Under the pieces are notes generated by a model. The model was not told where the DNA came from. It saw nothing but the letters and a program-made list of their open reading frames with translations, and searched no databases. A program made the translations under genes and the position numbers. 64,000 bases of DNA, taken from the NCBI RefSeq assembly GCF_000426825.1, contig NZ_AUGC01000004.1, positions 124,001 through 188,000 on the forward strand, written 5' to 3'. How positions within the stretch are numbered: the first letter of the stretch is position 1; every line of letters begins with the position of its first letter. Below, piece by piece: positions 51,235 through 63,545 of this stretch. This DNA is from Thermonema rossianum DSM 10300 (GTDB taxonomy: Bacteria; Bacteroidota; Bacteroidia; Cytophagales; Thermonemataceae).

Positions 51235-51326
51235 GGCTTCCGTTTTGATTGGTGAAATTACAAATTTATTGTTCGTCTTTTAGTCACTTATTGCTATATT
51301 CAAAAACAAAACAAAGTGCATTTGCC

Positions 51327-54300
51327 ATGACTACTACTTCATCTGTTCTAAAAGAAACGTTTATTCACAAGCTTTTGGAGGCAGGGGGAGCCCATGCCGG
51401 GCGTGAAGTGGTTTTTCTTTTACCTACCAAACGTGCCGCAAAAGAAATCAAACGCCTGGGAGGCGAAGCCATACAAGCCCACGCATGGGAAGACTTCATG
51501 CTGAAAATAGCCGCCCGGCAGTTGGGCATTCAGACAGGGCATCAATTCAGCACGCCGGAGCCCCAATTGCTCATTTGCCTGTATGAATGCTTGCATAAAG
51601 AGCTGAAAGAAAAGGTCACCGAGCTTTGGCATGAAGATGATGCCCAAGAGGTGGACGAAGAGGCAATGGAAGGCGAGGTGCAGCGCATTTTGAATGAGCG
51701 CATTGCCTCTTTTCTTGCTCGCCTGTTGCAAGACTTTATTGCTCTTGACGAAGCCCTGGTCGATGTTAGAGACATACTGCGTAATTTGAAAGAGCTTAAA
51801 GACCTTGAATATTTATCTGTCGCCTGGCAAGACGACGAGCAATTGAGAAAGGCGCCCCCTTCGGTGCGGCGGCAGGTGTTGCTTTATCGCAGCTTGCCGG
51901 AAGTGTACGAGCGCTTTCAAGAGATGTGTCAAAAGAAACGCATGGCGCACAAAGGGCAGCTGTGGCGCGCATGGGCAAAGCATGCGCCGGAGTGGTTCGA
52001 AAAAGCACCCGGCGACTTGTGGGTTGTAGCCGGCTTGAATCAGCTGAGCCAAGCAGAAATAGAGGTGCTCAAGAAGCTGCAAAAAGCGCAAAAAGTGCAG
52101 CTCTATTGGGAGTCAGACGACTATTATCATGAAGGTTATCAAAAAAACGGCACAGAAGAACAGAAGCTGCCGGGCGGTAAAGATTGGCACCCCGTAGGCA
52201 GGCGCCTTAAGCAATTTTGTGAAAAGACGGGCGCCGGACCTGCCGCTTTGATAAAAAGCAACCATTTGGCGCAGGGAAGCAAGGAATGCTATTTTGTATC
52301 TGTGCCCATGGCTTCCATGCAAACCCACGTGGTGCGCGACATCGTGAAGGGCAAGGGCGCATTGGCTGGCAAGCTGAACTTTGAGCCCGGCAGTTCGATA
52401 GGCATTGTTTTGGTCGATACTTTTTTACTGCCTGCCTTCATACGCGCCTTGAAAGAAAGCAAAGAAGATGAGTTGGCTGTTTCCATGGGCGTGGCGCTCA
52501 CCGCTACCCCTGCTTATCAGCTCATGCAGTCTATTTTTCAGTTGCACTTCGACGAGCAATGGCGCGTGCGCGAAAGCAGCTTACAGGAAGAAGAAAGCGA
52601 CACAGACGCGGAGCAGGTGGCAGAAGAGCCGGAAGAAAGAGTGGATGCGTCTGCTGCGAAAAAAGAGACCAAAGAAAGCCGCGTGCTGTGCTACTATCAT
52701 GCCCATATCAATGCGGTGCTGACACACCCTTACATATACGTTTTGCTGGGTAGAAGACTCAGATCGCAAGGCTTGGGCGAGTACGCATTGGCGCAGGCGC
52801 TTATTCAATCTTTTTTGAAGGAGATGACTGCCCGCCGCCATGCTTATGTCAGCAAAAAAGAACTGGTGGACTACATAGCAAAGGCAGCGGTGGAAAAAGC
52901 AGGTGCATCTGTTGCGGAGGCAGCGCGCGAAGCCTTGATGCAGCTGTTTCAGTCTTTTATTCAAGAGCTGTTCACTTATTGGAAGCAGGGAAAAGACGTA
53001 TCGACTTCGGCAGTCAGAGCATTGAAAGGCCTCACGCAGGAACTAAAGGAGGCCATGGAAGAGAAAGCCGCCGAAAAAGAGGACGCAGACGGACAAAACG
53101 AAGCAGCCCAAAGAGAGAGCGAAGCCAAAAAAGCCATTGCCCGGCTGGACGTGACCTACCTGGAAGAAATGCAGAACCTGTTTGCTGAAATAGAACAGCT
53201 GCTTGCCGACGCACAGCGCAATTCAGTCGCTACCACTTTGGGGTTTTTGCGCGGTTTGTTTCAGCAGATGACCCACGACCGTTTCGTTTATCCCGACACT
53301 TCTTCCGGAAACAGCCGCATCCATCTGTTGGGCTTGTCGGAATCGCGCCTGCTTGACTTTGACAATCTGATATTTGTAACCGCCAACGAAGGATACCTGC
53401 CTGCCGAGGTGGAGTTCCGCTCGCTTTTGCCCTATGCCTTCCATAAAGAGCTGGGCTTGCCTTTGCCCGAAGAGCAAATGATGAAAACCACGCAAGATGT
53501 GTATCGTTTGCTGCATCATGCACGCAAAATAGTGATGATGCAGGTAGAAAACGACGACTACGAACCCAGCCGCTATCTTTATCAAATAGAAGATGAGCTA
53601 TGTGTCTATAACCGGAACATAAGCCTTCAAAAAATACAGCTGCGTTTGCCACAGGCTAAATCCAAAGCCGAAGAGACGTTTGCAATTAAAAAAGACGGGG
53701 AAGTTATCGGTAAAATACGAGAATACCTTGAAAAAAATGGGCTTTCGCCTTCGGCACTCGATAGCTATCTTTCTTGTCCCTTGCGCTTTTATTTTTCGTA
53801 TGTGTTGAAATTTAAAAAAGAAGATGAGATAAGCGAAGAGTTGGAAAACAACGAATTCGGAACAGTGTTGCATGCCGTACTTGAAAAACTGTTCAAAAAC
53901 TATGAAGGCAAAGAAATTACACAAGAAGAACTGGACAAATGGTTGAGCGATGCGGTCTGCGACCAAGCAAGCGGTGTGCCCAAAGGAAAGCCCGTGATAA
54001 AACAAATGATAGAGCAGGAGCTCACCAAAAGAGGGCAAACCAACGAAGGTAGCGGTTTGTTGGCAAAGGTGGCACTCGAGACCATAATAGAACGCTTCTT
54101 GCACCTGCAAAAAAAAGAAATGGGCAACCAAAAGTGGAGCATCGAAGGGCTTGAGTTGCGCATGGAAGAAGAAAAAAGGATTGTGCTGCCCGTAGAGGTA
54201 GAGGGCTTAGGACGCGTGGAAGCGCGCCTGAAGGGAATTATTGACCGCGCCGACAAACGCATGGACCCCCAAACAGGGCAAGAAGTCTATTATGTGATTG

Positions 54301-54731
54301 ACTATAAGTCGGGGAGAGTAAGACCTAAAGACCTGCAATTGAGTTTGGATGATTTGGATGCCCTCTTTTCCCATGATCCAAAAAGCAACGGTTTGAAAAG
54401 CAGGCATGCAGACTATTCCAAGGTGCGTCAGTTGTTGATTTACACCTTCCTTTATCTGGAATACCTGCGTAGCCGGCAGCAACAAAAACCACCCCGGTTG
54501 TATGCAGGCATTTACTCATTCCGCAACTTGGCAGATGAACTGATGTTGTTAGAGGAAGAAAAAGGGGAAGCGTGGGATATTCGCCAAAAAGAAGAAGAAC
54601 TGAAAGAAGCCATTCGAAAGGTAATTGCCGAAATGTTGGATAAAGAAAAGGAAATCAGGAAGGTAGAAGATGTGCAACGCTGTACATATTGCGACTACAA
54701 AGTGATATGCCAACGGAAGCACGCTTCATAA
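51327..54731 (+). CDS. AddB-like PD-(D/E)xK nuclease with iron-sulfur cluster
   Basis: A 1134-residue protein like AddB of the AddAB recombination nuclease. The N-terminus (REVVFLLPTKRAAKEIKRL) is the non-Walker SF1-like start of AddB. The C-terminal nuclease has SALDSYLSCPLRFYFSYV, EFGTVLHAVLEKLF, VIDYKSGRV (catalytic D-x-K) and the four cluster ligands C817, C1119, C1122, C1128 in RCTYCDYKVICQRK. Two charged low-complexity inserts (about residues 430-460 and 570-610) are unusual. No addA-type helicase is adjacent. It would act in double-strand-break end resection. I use ATG 51327. Confidence 0.83.
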   Translation: MTTTSSVLKETFIHKLLEAGGAHAGREVVFLLPTKRAAKEIKRLGGEAIQAHAWEDFMLKIAARQLGIQTGHQFSTPEPQLLICLYECLHKELKEKVTELWHEDDAQEVDEEAMEGEVQRILNERIASFLARLLQDFIALDEALVDVRDILRNLKELKDLEYLSVAWQDDEQLRKAPPSVRRQVLLYRSLPEVYERFQEMCQKKRMAHKGQLWRAWAKHAPEWFEKAPGDLWVVAGLNQLSQAEIEVLKKLQKAQKVQLYWESDDYYHEGYQKNGTEEQKLPGGKDWHPVGRRLKQFCEKTGAGPAALIKSNHLAQGSKECYFVSVPMASMQTHVVRDIVKGKGALAGKLNFEPGSSIGIVLVDTFLLPAFIRALKESKEDELAVSMGVALTATPAYQLMQSIFQLHFDEQWRVRESSLQEEESDTDAEQVAEEPEERVDASAAKKETKESRVLCYYHAHINAVLTHPYIYVLLGRRLRSQGLGEYALAQALIQSFLKEMTARRHAYVSKKELVDYIAKAAVEKAGASVAEAAREALMQLFQSFIQELFTYWKQGKDVSTSAVRALKGLTQELKEAMEEKAAEKEDADGQNEAAQRESEAKKAIARLDVTYLEEMQNLFAEIEQLLADAQRNSVATTLGFLRGLFQQMTHDRFVYPDTSSGNSRIHLLGLSESRLLDFDNLIFVTANEGYLPAEVEFRSLLPYAFHKELGLPLPEEQMMKTTQDVYRLLHHARKIVMMQVENDDYEPSRYLYQIEDELCVYNRNISLQKIQLRLPQAKSKAEETFAIKKDGEVIGKIREYLEKNGLSPSALDSYLSCPLRFYFSYVLKFKKEDEISEELENNEFGTVLHAVLEKLFKNYEGKEITQEELDKWLSDAVCDQASGVPKGKPVIKQMIEQELTKRGQTNEGSGLLAKVALETIIERFLHLQKKEMGNQKWSIEGLELRMEEEKRIVLPVEVEGLGRVEARLKGIIDRADKRMDPQTGQEVYYVIDYKSGRVRPKDLQLSLDDLDALFSHDPKSNGLKSRHADYSKVRQLLIYTFLYLEYLRSRQQQKPPRLYAGIYSFRNLADELMLLEEEKGEAWDIRQKEEELKEAIRKVIAEMLDKEKEIRKVEDVQRCTYCDYKVICQRKHAS

Positions 54732-54796: not shown

Positions 54797-56794
54797 ATGA
54801 AAGAAGAAGAAGAAAAGTTGCCTTTTGAAGACGCCCCCGCAAGTGAGGCTTTCGTGGAGGGAAGCAACGAGCCCATAGATTTGCCCGGCGAAGAGGCGAG
54901 CCCGGCAGATGATGACCCTTGGCTGGAAAAAGAAGATCTAAGTGCCAATGGACCGGACGGCGAAGAGCAGCCCGCAGACGAACTACCCGCAACGGGGCTG
55001 CCCCCCATGGATGTGGTGGCGCAGTCGCCCTTGCCCGATACGGAAGAATACAAACAAGGCTTCTGGATAGGTTATCTGCGGCTCGACCGCCGCAACTATG
55101 AAGGCTGGTTTGCCGAGCAAACACACATCGCGGCATTGGAAAAAGAACAACAGGCGCTCGAGCAGCGTTTGCAAAGCCTGCAGCAGCTTTTACCCGAAAC
55201 CAAAGCGGCCTGCTTGCAATTGCAAAATGAAATCAATGCCATCAAGCACCGCCTTGACTATGAACAAAAGCAGTTCGAGCGACGCAAGCAAGAATATGAC
55301 CGTGTGTGTGAAGAAGAAAACAGCTATTTGGAAGAACGCGCCGGCTTGCGTCATAAATACTCTTTGCTTGCCGGCATACTTTTCTTTGTGGCGGGCTTTG
55401 TATTTATTGCCGGTGACCTTATCATTTCGCACGAAATTGTAGCCTATGCGCTCAATATCAAGAACAACATAGAAGCATGGAGCTTTGCCGTGGGGCTGGC
55501 CATGGTGTCGGTTTTGCTCAAACCGGCTTATGACCGCCTGATTGAAATCCCCTACAACCAAAGCAAGAGCCGGCGTGCCAAAGCCATTTATGTGGTGTTT
55601 AAGATGCTTATGGTTGGTTTTACCATAGCCACCCTGCTGGTGTTGGGCTTTTTCCGTTATGAAGCGTATAAAACCGACCGCCTTAAACAGAGTCTGGCTC
55701 AGCGTATCTTGCAACTGCAGGCATCCGATGAGCTCTCAGGGCAACAACTACAGGAGCTTGAAAGCCTTTCGGCACAGGCCGGCGCACTCGACAACCAACT
55801 GGTAGGCAGCCGGATGGGCTTGTTGTCTTTTGTGCTGTCCGGTGTGCTTTTTGCCGTAGCCGGCGCGGTGTGTTTGGGCATTAGCTTTCCCGTGCTGGTA
55901 GCCTACACACGCCTGTGGTTTCAAATACCTTGGCGCCTGAAAAAACTGCAAAAGATAAAACAAGAAAAGCAGGCAGTAGTGGAGCAGCTGGAGCAGACTG
56001 TCAGCCAAACCCGCTCGCAGCTGGATGCCCTGCAGCAGCAATTACAAATGACCGAGCGCCCCGAACAGTTGATACGGGAAATAAAAGACATAGAAGGGCG
56101 CTTGGCACTCATAGAAGAAGAGCTGCATCGTCACCGCCTCGAAGAACGCATCTACCGTCTGAACCATGGCTATGAGCAAGGGCAGGTATCGTTGCAGCAT
56201 GAACAGGCACGTGTACGGCAGCAGGTCGAGCACCTGCACCACCGCATAGCCGAACTGGAAGAAAAACTAAATCAACGTGAGGAACACCTGCAGCAAAGCA
56301 AAGAGCTGCTGCGCCAATGGGAACAAAAAGAGAAAGTGTGGCAAGAAACAGCCCGGCAACATGAAGAAGCAACCCAGGCGCTCAAAGAACGCATTGAGCA
56401 TTTGGAAGCGGCGATAAATAAAATGGAAGAAGAAAAACATGTACTGGAAGCCTCTTTGAAGGTGCGCGAGCAAACACTTGCCGACCTGAAGAAGCAGCTG
56501 GAAAACAAGGAAAGAGAGCTACGCTATGCCCATGCTGCTGCCGAGCAGGCAAGAGAAGATGCCGAAAAATTGCGTGCCGGTGAGGAAGCAGAAACACCCG
56601 TGAAAACAACCAAGCGTGGGCGCAAACCCAAAGTGCAAAAGCAAGCAGGCACCGAAGAGACCGCCGCCCCGCAAGAGGAATCGAAAGAAAAAGAAACAGC
56701 ACAAAAGAAAACGACCCGCAAGCGCCGGACAACCAAAAAGACTGAAACAAACAGTGCGCCGGAGCAAGACAGTGATACAAAAAAGGAAGAATAG
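54797..56794 (+). CDS. Four-TM coiled-coil protein with basic AT-hook-like tail
   Basis: A 665-residue protein I cannot name. Order: acidic disordered N-terminus (1-85), coiled coil (about 110-180), two helices (about 190-245, AGILFFVAGFVFIAGDLIIS), a cytoplasmic loop, two more helices (about 262-285 and 338-365), a long coiled coil (370-590, EQLEQTVSQTRSQLDALQQQ), and a Lys/Arg-rich tail (595-665) with TKRGRKPKVQ, which resembles an AT-hook (RGR/KP core), plus TTRKRRTTKK. Membrane-bound scaffolding with nucleic-acid contact is possible. The downstream VWA lipoprotein gene starts 36 nt after its stop, so they form a unit. Confidence 0.65.
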   Translation: MKEEEEKLPFEDAPASEAFVEGSNEPIDLPGEEASPADDDPWLEKEDLSANGPDGEEQPADELPATGLPPMDVVAQSPLPDTEEYKQGFWIGYLRLDRRNYEGWFAEQTHIAALEKEQQALEQRLQSLQQLLPETKAACLQLQNEINAIKHRLDYEQKQFERRKQEYDRVCEEENSYLEERAGLRHKYSLLAGILFFVAGFVFIAGDLIISHEIVAYALNIKNNIEAWSFAVGLAMVSVLLKPAYDRLIEIPYNQSKSRRAKAIYVVFKMLMVGFTIATLLVLGFFRYEAYKTDRLKQSLAQRILQLQASDELSGQQLQELESLSAQAGALDNQLVGSRMGLLSFVLSGVLFAVAGAVCLGISFPVLVAYTRLWFQIPWRLKKLQKIKQEKQAVVEQLEQTVSQTRSQLDALQQQLQMTERPEQLIREIKDIEGRLALIEEELHRHRLEERIYRLNHGYEQGQVSLQHEQARVRQQVEHLHHRIAELEEKLNQREEHLQQSKELLRQWEQKEKVWQETARQHEEATQALKERIEHLEAAINKMEEEKHVLEASLKVREQTLADLKKQLENKERELRYAHAAAEQAREDAEKLRAGEEAETPVKTTKRGRKPKVQKQAGTEETAAPQEESKEKETAQKKTTRKRRTTKKTETNSAPEQDSDTKKEE

Positions 56795-56830
56795 TTGAGC
56801 GACAGTGCTTTAAAAAAAGAACCTTCATTT

Positions 56831-57643
56831 ATGAAACGACAGTTTTATGCTTATTGCTTGTTTATCTTGGTGCCGTGGCTGATTGCGTCATGCGGCAGCG
56901 AACAGCCCCCGCAGATGCCACCGGCGCCACCGCCCGTGAACTACACCTTGATATTTATAGATAAAACCGTGTCGGTAAATACAGACGATGACTTCGTGCG
57001 AAACAAGTATGAGAAGGCACTGGAAATGCTTGTGCAGCATGGTATTCAAAAAAAAGGAGACAAAGTAGAAGTTTACTTCCTGCACGAAAATACCGCCCGG
57101 GGAAAAGTATTTTCTTACACCTGCCGTGCTGCCATGCCCGACACTACCGCCATGAATCCTACCGATGTAGCCATGGCAAAAAGCAATTACGGTTTGATGC
57201 TGCGAAAAGAGCAGCGTAAAGTATTGGAGCGCTGCCTGAAAGCGCTTGATATGCCCAATGAAAACTACAGCAAGCTGTACACCGACCTGTGGGCAAGCTT
57301 GCACATCATAGACAAGCGGCGTGCACGTCTGCCGTTCGATGCACACGTGCGTGTGTGTTATCTGAGCGACATGGTGGAAAGCATGCCGGGCAGCGGGCGC
57401 CGCGACTTCTTCAAGAAACCGCCTTATTCGCAAAAACAAGCGGTGCAATATGCCGAAGAAGACTTGCAGCAGTTTGCCGACCTGGAACTTGCCGGTGTAG
57501 AAGTGTTCTATGTGCTGCCTTTTTCGCCTACTACCCCCGCTTCGCAAAACAACCCATGGATCATCACCTACTGGGAAACCATCTTTCAGAACTTGGATGT
57601 GGCCGACTTTGCCGAACTTGAAGAAGAAAGTCTGCTTCAATAG
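56831..57643 (+). CDS. VWA-type lipoprotein with a complete MIDAS
   Basis: A 270-residue lipoprotein: lipobox LIASC (Cys21), a Pro-rich spacer (PPQMPPAPPPVN), then a fold like von Willebrand A. Its metal-ion site shows D44-x-T46-x-S48 (LIFIDKTVSVN), T151 (LYTDLWASLHII) and D180 (VCYLSDMVESMPG), the three MIDAS parts in order. It is a secreted/envelope protein with a predicted ligand-binding role. It sits 36 nt after the coiled-coil gene; a TTG at 56795 would make a longer frame but lacks a signal. Function not known. Confidence 0.7.
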   Translation: MKRQFYAYCLFILVPWLIASCGSEQPPQMPPAPPPVNYTLIFIDKTVSVNTDDDFVRNKYEKALEMLVQHGIQKKGDKVEVYFLHENTARGKVFSYTCRAAMPDTTAMNPTDVAMAKSNYGLMLRKEQRKVLERCLKALDMPNENYSKLYTDLWASLHIIDKRRARLPFDAHVRVCYLSDMVESMPGSGRRDFFKKPPYSQKQAVQYAEEDLQQFADLELAGVEVFYVLPFSPTTPASQNNPWIITYWETIFQNLDVADFAELEEESLLQ

Positions 57644-59397: not shown

Positions 59398-60156
59398 ATG
59401 CTCAATATTGATCTCTCGGGACAAACTGTCTTGGTTACGGGAAGCAGCCGCGGTATTGGCAAGGCAATTGTCGAAGCTTTGCTTGAAGCCGGTGCTTGGG
59501 TTATTGCCCACAGAAACCGCACGCCCTTGACAATAGAACATCCGCGCCTGCAAAGCATAGCTTTCGACCTGAACCGCCCGGAAGCCATCCCTTCTTTCTG
59601 GCAGGACTGCCTGCACCTGCTTCGGCAGCAGACAATGCCCCCGCTCAAAGGCGTGGTGCTGAACGCTGCCGTTGCATTGCGTGCACCACTCGATATGCCC
59701 TTTGAAGACTGGTTCAATGCATGGGAGCAAAGCATGCGGGTGAATGTGGGGGCGGCAGCGGCGTTGGCAAAAGAAGTGCTGCCTTACTTCCGCGCGCAGC
59801 AAGAAGGGCGTTTCGTGTGGATAGCCTCGCGCGCCGCCTTCCGGGGCGACACGCCCGAATATTGGGTCTATGCGGCATCGAAGAGTGCCATGTTGGGCGT
59901 GAGCCGTTCTATTGCCCGCTTTCACGGAAAAGAGGGCATCCGTTCGTTTGCGTTGGCGCCCGGCTTTACCATGACCGACATGGCAAAGGACTTCATCGAT
60001 GCCTATGGCGAAGAGTATGTGAAAAACGACATAGCTCTGGAACGCATCACGCAACCACGCGACGTGGCGCTATGGGTGCCGTGGCTGCTCAGCGGCTATG
60101 CTGACCACGCCACCGGAGCCACCTTCGATGTAAATGCAGGCAGCTATGTGCGTTGA
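59398..60156 (+). CDS. Short-chain dehydrogenase/reductase (FabG-like)
   Basis: A 252-residue NAD(P)-dependent oxidoreductase. TVLVTGSSRGIGKAIVEALL is the cofactor TGxxxGIG motif; VVLNAAVA (NAG-like), WIASRAAF (catalytic Ser) and YAASKSAMLGVSRS (catalytic YxxxK) follow, then PGFTMTDMAKDF. It resembles FabG-type 3-oxoacyl reductases, but the substrate is open: SDR enzymes of this length act on many alcohols and ketones. It stands 50 nt after the OMP gene and ends 46 nt before the restriction-modification gene. Confidence 0.88.
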   Translation: MLNIDLSGQTVLVTGSSRGIGKAIVEALLEAGAWVIAHRNRTPLTIEHPRLQSIAFDLNRPEAIPSFWQDCLHLLRQQTMPPLKGVVLNAAVALRAPLDMPFEDWFNAWEQSMRVNVGAAAALAKEVLPYFRAQQEGRFVWIASRAAFRGDTPEYWVYAASKSAMLGVSRSIARFHGKEGIRSFALAPGFTMTDMAKDFIDAYGEEYVKNDIALERITQPRDVALWVPWLLSGYADHATGATFDVNAGSYVR

Positions 60157-60202
60157 GAGAGAGGGGACAGTAATTTTATTGTACCACAAAAAACATGAGA
60201 AA

Positions 60203-62632
60203 ATGAAATATCCGAACATACTGGAAGAAGAGTTAAAAAATAAGGTAGCACAGGACTATTTCTGGTTGTATGACTGCACCAAAATTATTGGTAAAATAGA
60301 CTTTTGTGTGTGTATGCACCAAAGCCAAACAACAGACGAGGTGGAGTCTCTGTTATGGGCAGAAGCCAAAAGGGGGAGTTCGGAGGTCCATAAATCTTTT
60401 GTTCAGTTGATTCTTACTATTGGTAAAGAAAGAACTTTTGACAAGTATCTTCCGCCAGCTTTCCTGGGGGCTTTTGATGCCGAGAAAATAGCCTTTCTTC
60501 CCTATAGCGACATTCAAGAATTTTTTTACTTAAATGACTTCAATTGGAATGTTGCCCCGTCTGATCACACTACTAAGGAGTTTCAACTTATTTATGACAC
60601 AGTAAAAAACATTCTTGACAGCAAGACGCTTCTGTTTTATTTTGACAGAGACGATAGAGACCTTCAACGCTTTATTAGGCTCAACTTTCAAGAAAGCAAA
60701 CGCGGGCTAACTAAAATTAGAATAGACAAAAACAACTTCATTTCTGTATACAACAAATGGTTGGAAGTAGTAAAACCAACCATTGCCGTTGATTGGGAAA
60801 AAGCAAAAGCACGTGGCATCATTGATGGTGATTTTTATCTTGCAGACTTGCTTTCTGCAAATAACGTTACACTCAAAGATAAGCTGTTTGTTTTGCTAAA
60901 AAGCGACCATTACGAGCTCGATAGAGAAATTGACGAAAGTGGATTCTTTAAAAAGAAAGAGGCTGATTTTCAAGACAAGCAGCAGGCTCATACTCAATTT
61001 TGGAACAGATATGAGCGCCCTCCAAAAGAAGAGTATTGGGACTATATTGTAGAGCGCAGAGACTTGCTCGTGCCACAAGATATCCGTGAACGAAAGGGTA
61101 GTTTTTTCACACCACGCAACTGGGTGGCACTCTCGCAGCAATATCTTACCAATGTGCTGGGTGAAGACTGGCAAGACGAATACTTTGTATGGGATTGTGC
61201 GGCAGGTACCGGTAACTTGCTCACGGGACTGACCAACAAATACAATATCTATGCCTCTACACTGGATCGTCAAGATGTGGAGGTCATGCACGACCGCATT
61301 AGCAATGGTGCGAACTTGCTGCCCGATCACGTCTTTCAGTTTGACTTTCTGAATGACGAGTGGAAGCCCGTTTCTTCAGGTGGCAAAATCCCCGACAGCT
61401 TATTTAAAATAATTTCGGATGCCGAAAAACGTAAAAAGTTGATTGTTTACATTAATCCGCCTTATGCCGAAGCTACCACAGCCAGAACCGTAACACGAAC
61501 AGGTAAAAACAAGGCAGGTGTATCCACAGAACAAAAGGCGAACCACTATTTTAAATCTAAAATTGGCAGTGCAGCCAACGAGCTTTTTGCACTTTTTATG
61601 GCACAGGTTTATGAAAAAATGCCGGGCTGTATCTTGGCACAGTTCTCAACGCTTAAGTTTGTACAAGGCAGCAACTTTGATAAGTTTAAGCAGTATTTTA
61701 GAGCAAAATATTTGGGGGGCTTTGTAGTGCCTTCAAATACATTTGACAACGTCAGAGGCCAGTTTCCTATTGGGTTTACTATTTGGGATTTGGGCACCAA
61801 AGAAGAAATAAAAAATATCATTTGCCAAGTATATAATGAGAATGAAGAGAAAGTAGGTGTGAAAACTTTCTATGGAGATTTGCCTAAAAGATTGAACGAT
61901 TGGTTTGTGCAGTTCGAAGATAAAAACGGAGAAGAAATAGGGTTGTTGTCGTTTTATCCGCCTGATTTCCAAAATAATAACAAGTTCTCCATTTTGTCGA
62001 AACCACAGGCACGCTATTGCAAGAAAGTTACACCAGGAAATATTATTCAGGTGGCTATTTACTTTGCCGTTCGCCATTGTTTGAAAGCCACTTGGCTGAA
62101 CGATCGAGATCAATTTTTATATCCGAACGATGGCTGGAAGCACGACAAAGAATTTCAGACCGATTGTTTGATATTTACGCTTTTTCATGACCAGAACCGT
62201 ATTTCAAGCAAGTATGGTACTAATCACTGGATACCATTCACCGAGCAAGAAGTAGGAGCCCGTGATAGATTTGATAGTCATTTTATGAACGATTATATAA
62301 ATGGGAAAATAAAAATAGAACAAGCTACTGATCTGTTCCAACAAGAAGGCAATGTACCTATAAAACTGCAGTTTTCTGCTCAGGCAAAGGAAGTTTTTGA
62401 AGCAGGCAAAGCCCTTTGGAAATACTATCATCAACAACCACACAATAATATCAATGCTTCTTTTTACGATATTAAAGAGTATTTTCAAGGACGCAACGAA
62501 AAAGGCAAGTTAAACAAAAAAAGCAATGATAAAACTTATATGAAGCTCATTACGCAATTGCGTGAAAAGCTTGAAAAATTGGCTGAGAAAATACAGCCTA
62601 AGGTGTATTTATATGGGTTTCTAAGGCCTTGA
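60203..62632 (+). CDS. Type IIG-like restriction-modification enzyme (nuclease + N6-adenine methylase)
   Basis: An 809-residue protein. The N-terminus has D33 (GKIDFCV) and E54-x-K56 (LLWAEAKRG), the order and spacing of a PD-(D/E)xK nuclease. Then a gamma-class methylase: VWDCAAGTGNLL (motif I, about residue 331) and INPPYAEA (motif IV, N418-P-P-Y421). The C-terminal third is the likely target recognition part. Such one-chain enzymes cut and methylate using SAM. The gene is AT-rich compared to its neighbours and is flanked by a hairpin-bearing non-coding tract, signs of transfer. ATG 60203 is preferred; no separate R or S gene is near. Confidence 0.82.
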   Translation: MKYPNILEEELKNKVAQDYFWLYDCTKIIGKIDFCVCMHQSQTTDEVESLLWAEAKRGSSEVHKSFVQLILTIGKERTFDKYLPPAFLGAFDAEKIAFLPYSDIQEFFYLNDFNWNVAPSDHTTKEFQLIYDTVKNILDSKTLLFYFDRDDRDLQRFIRLNFQESKRGLTKIRIDKNNFISVYNKWLEVVKPTIAVDWEKAKARGIIDGDFYLADLLSANNVTLKDKLFVLLKSDHYELDREIDESGFFKKKEADFQDKQQAHTQFWNRYERPPKEEYWDYIVERRDLLVPQDIRERKGSFFTPRNWVALSQQYLTNVLGEDWQDEYFVWDCAAGTGNLLTGLTNKYNIYASTLDRQDVEVMHDRISNGANLLPDHVFQFDFLNDEWKPVSSGGKIPDSLFKIISDAEKRKKLIVYINPPYAEATTARTVTRTGKNKAGVSTEQKANHYFKSKIGSAANELFALFMAQVYEKMPGCILAQFSTLKFVQGSNFDKFKQYFRAKYLGGFVVPSNTFDNVRGQFPIGFTIWDLGTKEEIKNIICQVYNENEEKVGVKTFYGDLPKRLNDWFVQFEDKNGEEIGLLSFYPPDFQNNNKFSILSKPQARYCKKVTPGNIIQVAIYFAVRHCLKATWLNDRDQFLYPNDGWKHDKEFQTDCLIFTLFHDQNRISSKYGTNHWIPFTEQEVGARDRFDSHFMNDYINGKIKIEQATDLFQQEGNVPIKLQFSAQAKEVFEAGKALWKYYHQQPHNNINASFYDIKEYFQGRNEKGKLNKKSNDKTYMKLITQLREKLEKLAEKIQPKVYLYGFLRP

Positions 62633-63468: not shown

Positions 63469-63545
<77 letters not shown>

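Follow-up and report, generated by a model that had tools for sequence, protein, structure and literature searches.

In a stretch of 64,000 nucleotides from Thermonema rossianum DSM 10300 (NZ_AUGC01000004.1, positions 124,001-188,000, forward strand; here called the window, to which all coordinates refer unless a locus is named), two neighbouring genes at positions 54797-57643 encode a membrane protein of 665 amino acids, A1 (P0001; 54797..56794), and a von Willebrand factor A (VWA) lipoprotein of 270 amino acids, A3 (P0002; 56831..57643), both on the plus strand like all of their features given below. We tentatively read A1 and A3, together with a third membrane protein A2 in many carriers, as one envelope-spanning relay complex that is sometimes recruited to RNA-targeting type III CRISPR (clustered regularly interspaced short palindromic repeats) loci. 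This reading, to which we give somewhat less than an even chance, is based on sequence comparison, because A1 and A3 strictly co-occur, the gene order A2-A1-A3 recurs, the membrane core of A1 is highly conserved, its two stalks have a fixed length and a C-terminal peptide of A1 goes along with A2. An earlier inspection that used the letters of the window alone (the sequence-only reading) had called the pair uncharacterised, and this holds, as neither protein reaches the cut-off of any Pfam or NCBIfam model. The PADLOC matches of the pair are coiled-coil-like only and lie far under the cut-offs where such exist, and the sub-cut-off matches of P0001, among them PADLOC DruC (E 3.7e-6) and NCBIfam SMC (E 1.3e-6), fall mainly on the coiled-coil parts. 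A2 and the linkage to type III CRISPR were missed by that inspection; neither is visible from the window, and A2 is absent from the window's family.

The co-occurrence of both genes across Bacteroidota, which the sequence-only reading had proposed as a check, turned out in favour of a pair that belongs together. Relatives of P0002 are present in 29 of 194 genomes of the order, and P0001 matches 32 of them, namely the same 29 with E-values of 3.1e-49 or better and three more with weak matches (E 4.1e-4 to 9.4e-4) that cover the C-terminal coiled coil only. Both genes are adjacent in 13 of the 29 carriers and unlinked in 15, and in the remaining genome, G111, they lie on two short contigs. The unlinked carriers, 14 of the family f11, which we take as Spirosomataceae, plus G008, have the genes on separate contigs or megabases apart on single contigs. 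In a set of 395 genomes of the phylum, which overlaps with the order set, the A1 and A3 profiles match 12 genomes each and nine in common, four of which are already in the order set; the three genomes with A3 only contain distant relatives, and the three matches with A1 only are weak (E 1.3e-4 to 6.8e-4). A scan of genomes from 84,980 species confirmed 148 A1 relatives, of which the best 80 were taken further, and a plasmid search found P0002 on two Rhodothermus plasmids. A locus search with P0002 alone gave no related loci. Taken together, the distribution supports the view that the A1 and A3 genes belong together.

The first protein had been described as a four-helix membrane protein with long coiled coils, which is confirmed by four hydrophobic regions (about residues 184-221, 223-245, 260-290 and 334-377) inside long predicted helices. 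According to the open reading frame (ORF), the alignment and the model, A1 is a hub of four transmembrane (TM) helices with two cytoplasmic stalks. An N-terminal tip motif (residues 84-92; 55046..55072) that contains G88xxxG92 is followed by the N stalk, a predicted helix of residues 103-187 (55103..55357), by TM1-TM2 (residues 190-256; 55364..55564) and by the TM3 region (residues 259-293; 55571..55675). Alignment and hydrophobicity then delimit a predicted periplasmic loop of variable length (residues 294-341; 55676..55819) and TM4 (residues 342-376; 55820..55924), which leads into the C stalk (residues 377-457; 55925..56167) and the C-terminal tip motif G458xxxG462 (56168..56182). Invariant in all 104 rows of the A1 alignment are G88 and G92 of the N-terminal tip, D207, E226, W228, G233, K242, R247 and E250 of TM1-TM2, and R287 of the TM3 region; G458 is found in 103 and G462 in 100 rows. 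The distance from G92 to F203 across the N stalk is 112 residues in 97 rows and 108-114 in the others, and that from F352 to G458 across the C stalk is 107 residues in 103 rows and 114 in one, compared to 40 to 70 residues between R287 and F345 across the periplasmic loop. Among the 23 rows below 60% identity the N stalk still has 112 residues in 17 and the C stalk 107 in 22; mean identity there is 16.5% for the N stalk and 21% for the C stalk, as opposed to 60% for TM1-TM2 and 56% for TM4. In an alignment-free motif count of 100 rows, with four more left unscored, either stalk had one and the same length in 96. Therefore, the A1 stalks are conserved in length and not in sequence. Lys and Arg make up 37.5% of the residues after TM4 and 23% before TM1, versus 7% in the loop between TM1 and TM2, a distribution that makes a cytoplasmic location of both stalks likely. 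A known fold was not found for A1, as among the 50 Foldseek rows listed its model matches mostly coiled-coil or long-helix proteins.

A3 is a lipoprotein whose VWA fold is predicted with confidence and whose metal ion-dependent adhesion site (MIDAS) is conserved, which bears out what the sequence-only reading had claimed for the second protein. Its hydrophobicity peaks in the signal region around residues 3-25, where the lipobox Cys21 (56891..56893) is located, a Cys in all 24 aligned relatives; past residue 25 no other stretch is strongly hydrophobic (best mean over 19 residues 1.04). The MIDAS motif has the form DxSxS...T...D. In A3 it consists of D44-x-T46-x-S48 (56960..56974), T151 (57281..57283) and D180 (57368..57370), with D44 and D180 in 24/24 relatives and an exchange of Thr and Ser at the other positions (at position 46, Thr in 15 relatives and Ser in nine; at 48, Ser in all but one, which has Thr; at 151, Thr in all but one, which has Ser). 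The AlphaFold2 model has a predicted local distance difference test score (pLDDT) of 91.6 and a VWA fold with a best Z of 12.3; against the PDB it gave 126 rows with E<=0.001, and several named VWA domains are among the 50 listed. No curated VWA profile matches P0002 over its cut-off, and VWA_2 was found in 2 of the 24 relatives with a best E of 0.032.

The third partner A2 is a membrane coiled-coil protein encoded upstream of A1 in Spirosomataceae and in G017. It lies within the fetched stretch in 68 of 79 scored loci from the best 80 A1 loci, mostly directly upstream, with an extra called ORF between A2 and A1 in five Arcicella-like loci; among the same 80, A3 is also present in L179 and L180, and it is present in the loci L165-L167 of the window's family (f1). 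Genome-wide, A2 was found in 16 of the 29 carriers, in G008 at a separate site, and in none of the eight genomes of the window's family and none of the five of the family f5. Since the gene order A2-A1-A3 is found in G017, G201, G250, G196, G491 and G286, the trio probably represents the older state, from which A2 would have been lost in the window's family. Moreover, A1 ends with an RP-x-x-x-IR-type peptide in rows with A2 and not in rows without A2: among the 104 rows, 82 have both and 20 neither, with one discordant row of either kind. On a tree of the A1 core, from which the peptide end was left out, peptide and A2 change six times each, in five cases on a shared branch; two of the five cases are a deep loss and regain, for which separate losses are equally possible. 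A paralogy of A1 and A2 is unsupported (hhalign probability 11%), and the family scan of A2 listed no peptidoglycan-binding Pfam family.

In the relay complex, a lipid anchor would place A3 on the periplasmic side, and the metal of its MIDAS would be held by an acidic residue of the periplasmic face of A1, for which E226 or D294 are the best candidates. A change at this contact might pass through the TM core of A1 to the paired stalk tips, which would reach into the cytoplasm at a rigid length and engage A2, for which the C-terminal peptide of A1 would be the docking site. In the window's lineage, which is without A2, another partner would be engaged at the tips. The module may also sense a ligand, and its output might be envelope repair, signalling or immunity. 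In Rhodothermus and a second lineage of the same class, type III loci seem to have acquired the trio, and those of a third lineage may likewise have acquired a distant VWA relative together with a different four-TM protein; there the role would probably be that of an envelope-side effector or a guard of the response. The most specific version of this, a new class of trans-envelope relay, we regard as unlikely. In it, the VWA lipoprotein would use its MIDAS metal to gate the four-helix hub, the two cytoplasmic arms would serve as a molecular ruler holding the paired glycine tips and an A2-docked end at a set distance from the membrane, and type III CRISPR would have recruited the device repeatedly as its membrane arm. 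The module has the marks of a real machine, with partners that stay together, stalks that keep their length and a peptide tied to a partner, and its recurrence in type III loci would open a connection between RNA-triggered immunity and the envelope to direct testing.

Linkage to type III CRISPR is found in Rhodothermus marinus, where the trio lies on two plasmids (two strains of one lineage) between csm/ring-nuclease genes and csx2, which starts 4 base pairs (bp) after A3. In the type III loci of Rhodothermus, the trio comes after a small DUF4236 gene (L245:8840-9016). G196 carries a similar locus on its chromosome, close to Cas10. In G491 a Cas10 gene begins 193 bp after A3 of the trio (PF22335 over cut-off, the NCBIfam Cas10 models below theirs), and RAMP genes follow as well, one of which is over the Csx7 cut-off. 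G485 encodes a distant A3 relative (hhalign probability 97%) downstream of a four-TM protein; RT-Cas1, Csx15 and a Csx3-like gene are close by, and Cas10 lies about 10 kilobases away. The same VWA and four-TM pair is present in G372 and G428, in neither of which Cas10 was detected, and the plasmid search found this four-TM protein in no plasmid. Around the VWA pair in L131:835-10000, an RT-Cas1 fusion and a repeat array, seen in translation, were observed; the Csx15 of L131 has an N-terminal hydrophobic segment and the Csx3-like protein an N-terminal P-loop-like part. By our own arithmetic, a linkage in three of about seven lineages outside the order would be very rare at a background of 0.6% per locus, and have a chance of a few per cent at the 10% assumed for accessory islands.

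Several points weigh against the relay complex and its recruitment to CRISPR loci. Confidence in the A1 model is moderate (pLDDT 69.6, predicted template modelling score 0.39), and the 104 A1 rows hold 97 distinct sequences as judged on the last 300 residues. The peptide pattern was defined once the sequences had been inspected and was then scored on these very rows, and the absence of A2 applies genome-wide for the 29 carrier genomes and elsewhere to the fetched locus. The four-TM protein of G485 is like A1 in layout and place only, as hhalign gives 0.1-0.4% for a relationship. Cas10 occurs in 27 of the 194 order genomes, five of which carry the pair compared to about four expected by chance on our arithmetic, and the 31 Cas10 stretches from these 27 genomes contain no A1 or A3, with a single A2-like match in L268 (E 0.0075). 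Carriers outside the order are linked in some cases only: Cas10 was not detected in G286 and lies on a separate contig in G250. In G652, G668, G588 and G511 no cas genes were recognised by eye, without a family search, and the first three of these share their family with the CRISPR-linked G491. By eye, a multi-TM coiled-coil protein is encoded directly upstream of the VWA relative in G588 and G511. Likewise by eye, a distant VWA relative and a multi-TM coiled-coil protein with low third-position G+C stand among Rhs-like ORFs in L296:9004-11523.

A possible alternative, which we rate only a little less likely than the relay complex, is that A1 and A3 form a housekeeping envelope complex of Bacteroidota, acting in tethering, envelope stress or cell shape without a role in defence, and that its CRISPR neighbourhoods arose by accident in accessory islands. 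The A1/A3 module is near-core in Spirosomataceae: of the 150 genomes sampled, 127 contain A1 and 23 do not, at least 14 of the latter belonging to one small-genome genus, so that most sampled genomes of this family have a module without a passing Pfam or NCBIfam match. In line with housekeeping, Cas10 was detected in none of the 14 Spirosomataceae carriers of the order set, and neither P0001 nor P0002 has a match in 50,697 phage records. However, three lineages with different gene orders have the module or its relatives in or near type III loci, in Rhodothermus the trio stands between csm genes and csx2, and outside the order the presence is patchy. The class of G491 has A3 in 8 of 195 genomes and that of G485 in 4 of 98, where one match is weak, as counted with a profile that includes members of both classes.

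It is improbable that the module is a dedicated ancillary effector of type III CRISPR which has been orphaned in most genomes. The Rhodothermus plasmids, the Cas10 and Csx7-type RAMP genes behind A3 of G491 and the neighbours of the G485 VWA relative would fit such an effector. However, family scans of the pair, its relatives and the loci found no CARF, SAVED or other cyclic-nucleotide-binding family over cut-off (a Cas_APE2256 match in 1 of 24 A3 relatives, E 0.018, is taken as noise), and Cas10 was not detected in 24 of the 29 order carriers. Dependence on Cas10 as a general rule was rejected, given an overlap at chance level and 35 Cas10 stretches without A1 or A3. To these belong, beyond the 31 named above, four stretches from G485, G250, G201 and G196, likewise without an A1 or A3 match, several of the 35 stretches being short because their contigs end; the weak match in L268 is the only A2-like one among all 35. 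The genome of the window itself has a Cas10 gene (G000:C1:481779-482150) on a different contig from the pair.

An ion-driven motor of the Zorya or Tol type, in which A1 would be the stator with long cytoplasmic helices and A3 the periplasmic arm, is very unlikely. The invariant charged residues in or near the A1 membrane helices, the long cytoplasmic helices and the periplasmic partner are compatible with it. However, no MotA or TolQ is named among the 50 Foldseek rows listed for A1, ZorA is not among the PADLOC matches of P0001, and the partner is a VWA protein instead of a peptidoglycan-binding domain.

AT-hooks have a conserved GRP core in a basic context. P0001 indeed has a Lys/Arg-rich tail with a GRKP core (56594..56791), as the sequence-only reading had noted, but this tail is not conserved: the core is SRKN in the sister species G041 and has no counterpart in the other aligned relatives, and the place of the tail is occupied in A2-bearing relatives by the RP-x-x-x-IR-type peptide. 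Of the trans-envelope device proposed on this basis, the anatomy of a TM hub plus a VWA lipoprotein stands. That it binds a ligand outside and DNA or RNA inside is extremely improbable, since a tail with GRKP in the window's protein alone, differing even in the sister species, leaves DNA contact unsupported and led us to reject an AT-hook.

Upstream of A1, an ORF for an AddB-like helicase/nuclease (label from sequence; 51249-54731, plus strand) ends 65 bp before A1, an order also present in the sister species G041 (L063) and not in the other loci of the window's family that were read. Downstream, an ORF of 832 amino acids with the look of a restriction-modification-type methyltransferase, again labelled from sequence, lies at 60134-62632 (plus strand) in a stretch of lower G+C content (41%), and a tRNA-Asp gene at 63469-63545 (minus strand). 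In a genome of the Raineya group, a BatD-like protein (PF13584; L065:5811-7205) is encoded directly upstream of A1-A3.

Among known systems, SMC/MukB and chemoreceptor coiled coils, which are the first and third Foldseek rows, have long helices like A1. However, the likeness to SMC/MukB is one of coiled coils only: SMC-type models match solely in their middle stretches and far under cut-off, and the NCBIfam and PADLOC scans gave no match of an SMC-type ATPase-head stretch in P0001. Zorya ZorA-ZorB, a system described in PMC11890865, combines an inner-membrane hub, long cytoplasmic helices and a periplasmic partner as A1/A3 would do, but A1 has no match to ZorA in PADLOC or among the 50 Foldseek rows listed, A3 is a VWA protein and A1 has two stalks with GxxxG tips. 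With Cam1, Csx23 and CorA, membrane effectors of type III CRISPR (PMC11229360), the module shares a membrane protein beside type III genes; in contrast to them, family scans show it without a nucleotide-sensing domain and most order carriers are without detected Cas10. The CRISPR link of the module may be partly known already, as Altae-Tran et al. (2023; PMC10910872) report vWA-related systems near CRISPR alongside transmembrane proteins, a likeness at the level of description. None of the titles and abstract openings listed in literature searches, among them searches on VWA and CRISPR, describes the A2-A1-A3 trio. With VWA and integrin I domains such as BatB of Bacteroides (3ibs), CLCA1 (6pyo) and integrin alpha2 (1dzi), A3 has the fold and the MIDAS in common. 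The aerotolerance VWA proteins BatA and BatB are anchored by membrane helices, unlike A3, which has no further strongly hydrophobic stretch for such an anchor. A3 differs from these VWA proteins as a lipid-anchored single domain, which no curated VWA model recognises over cut-off and which, in the order, is always accompanied by its TM partner A1.

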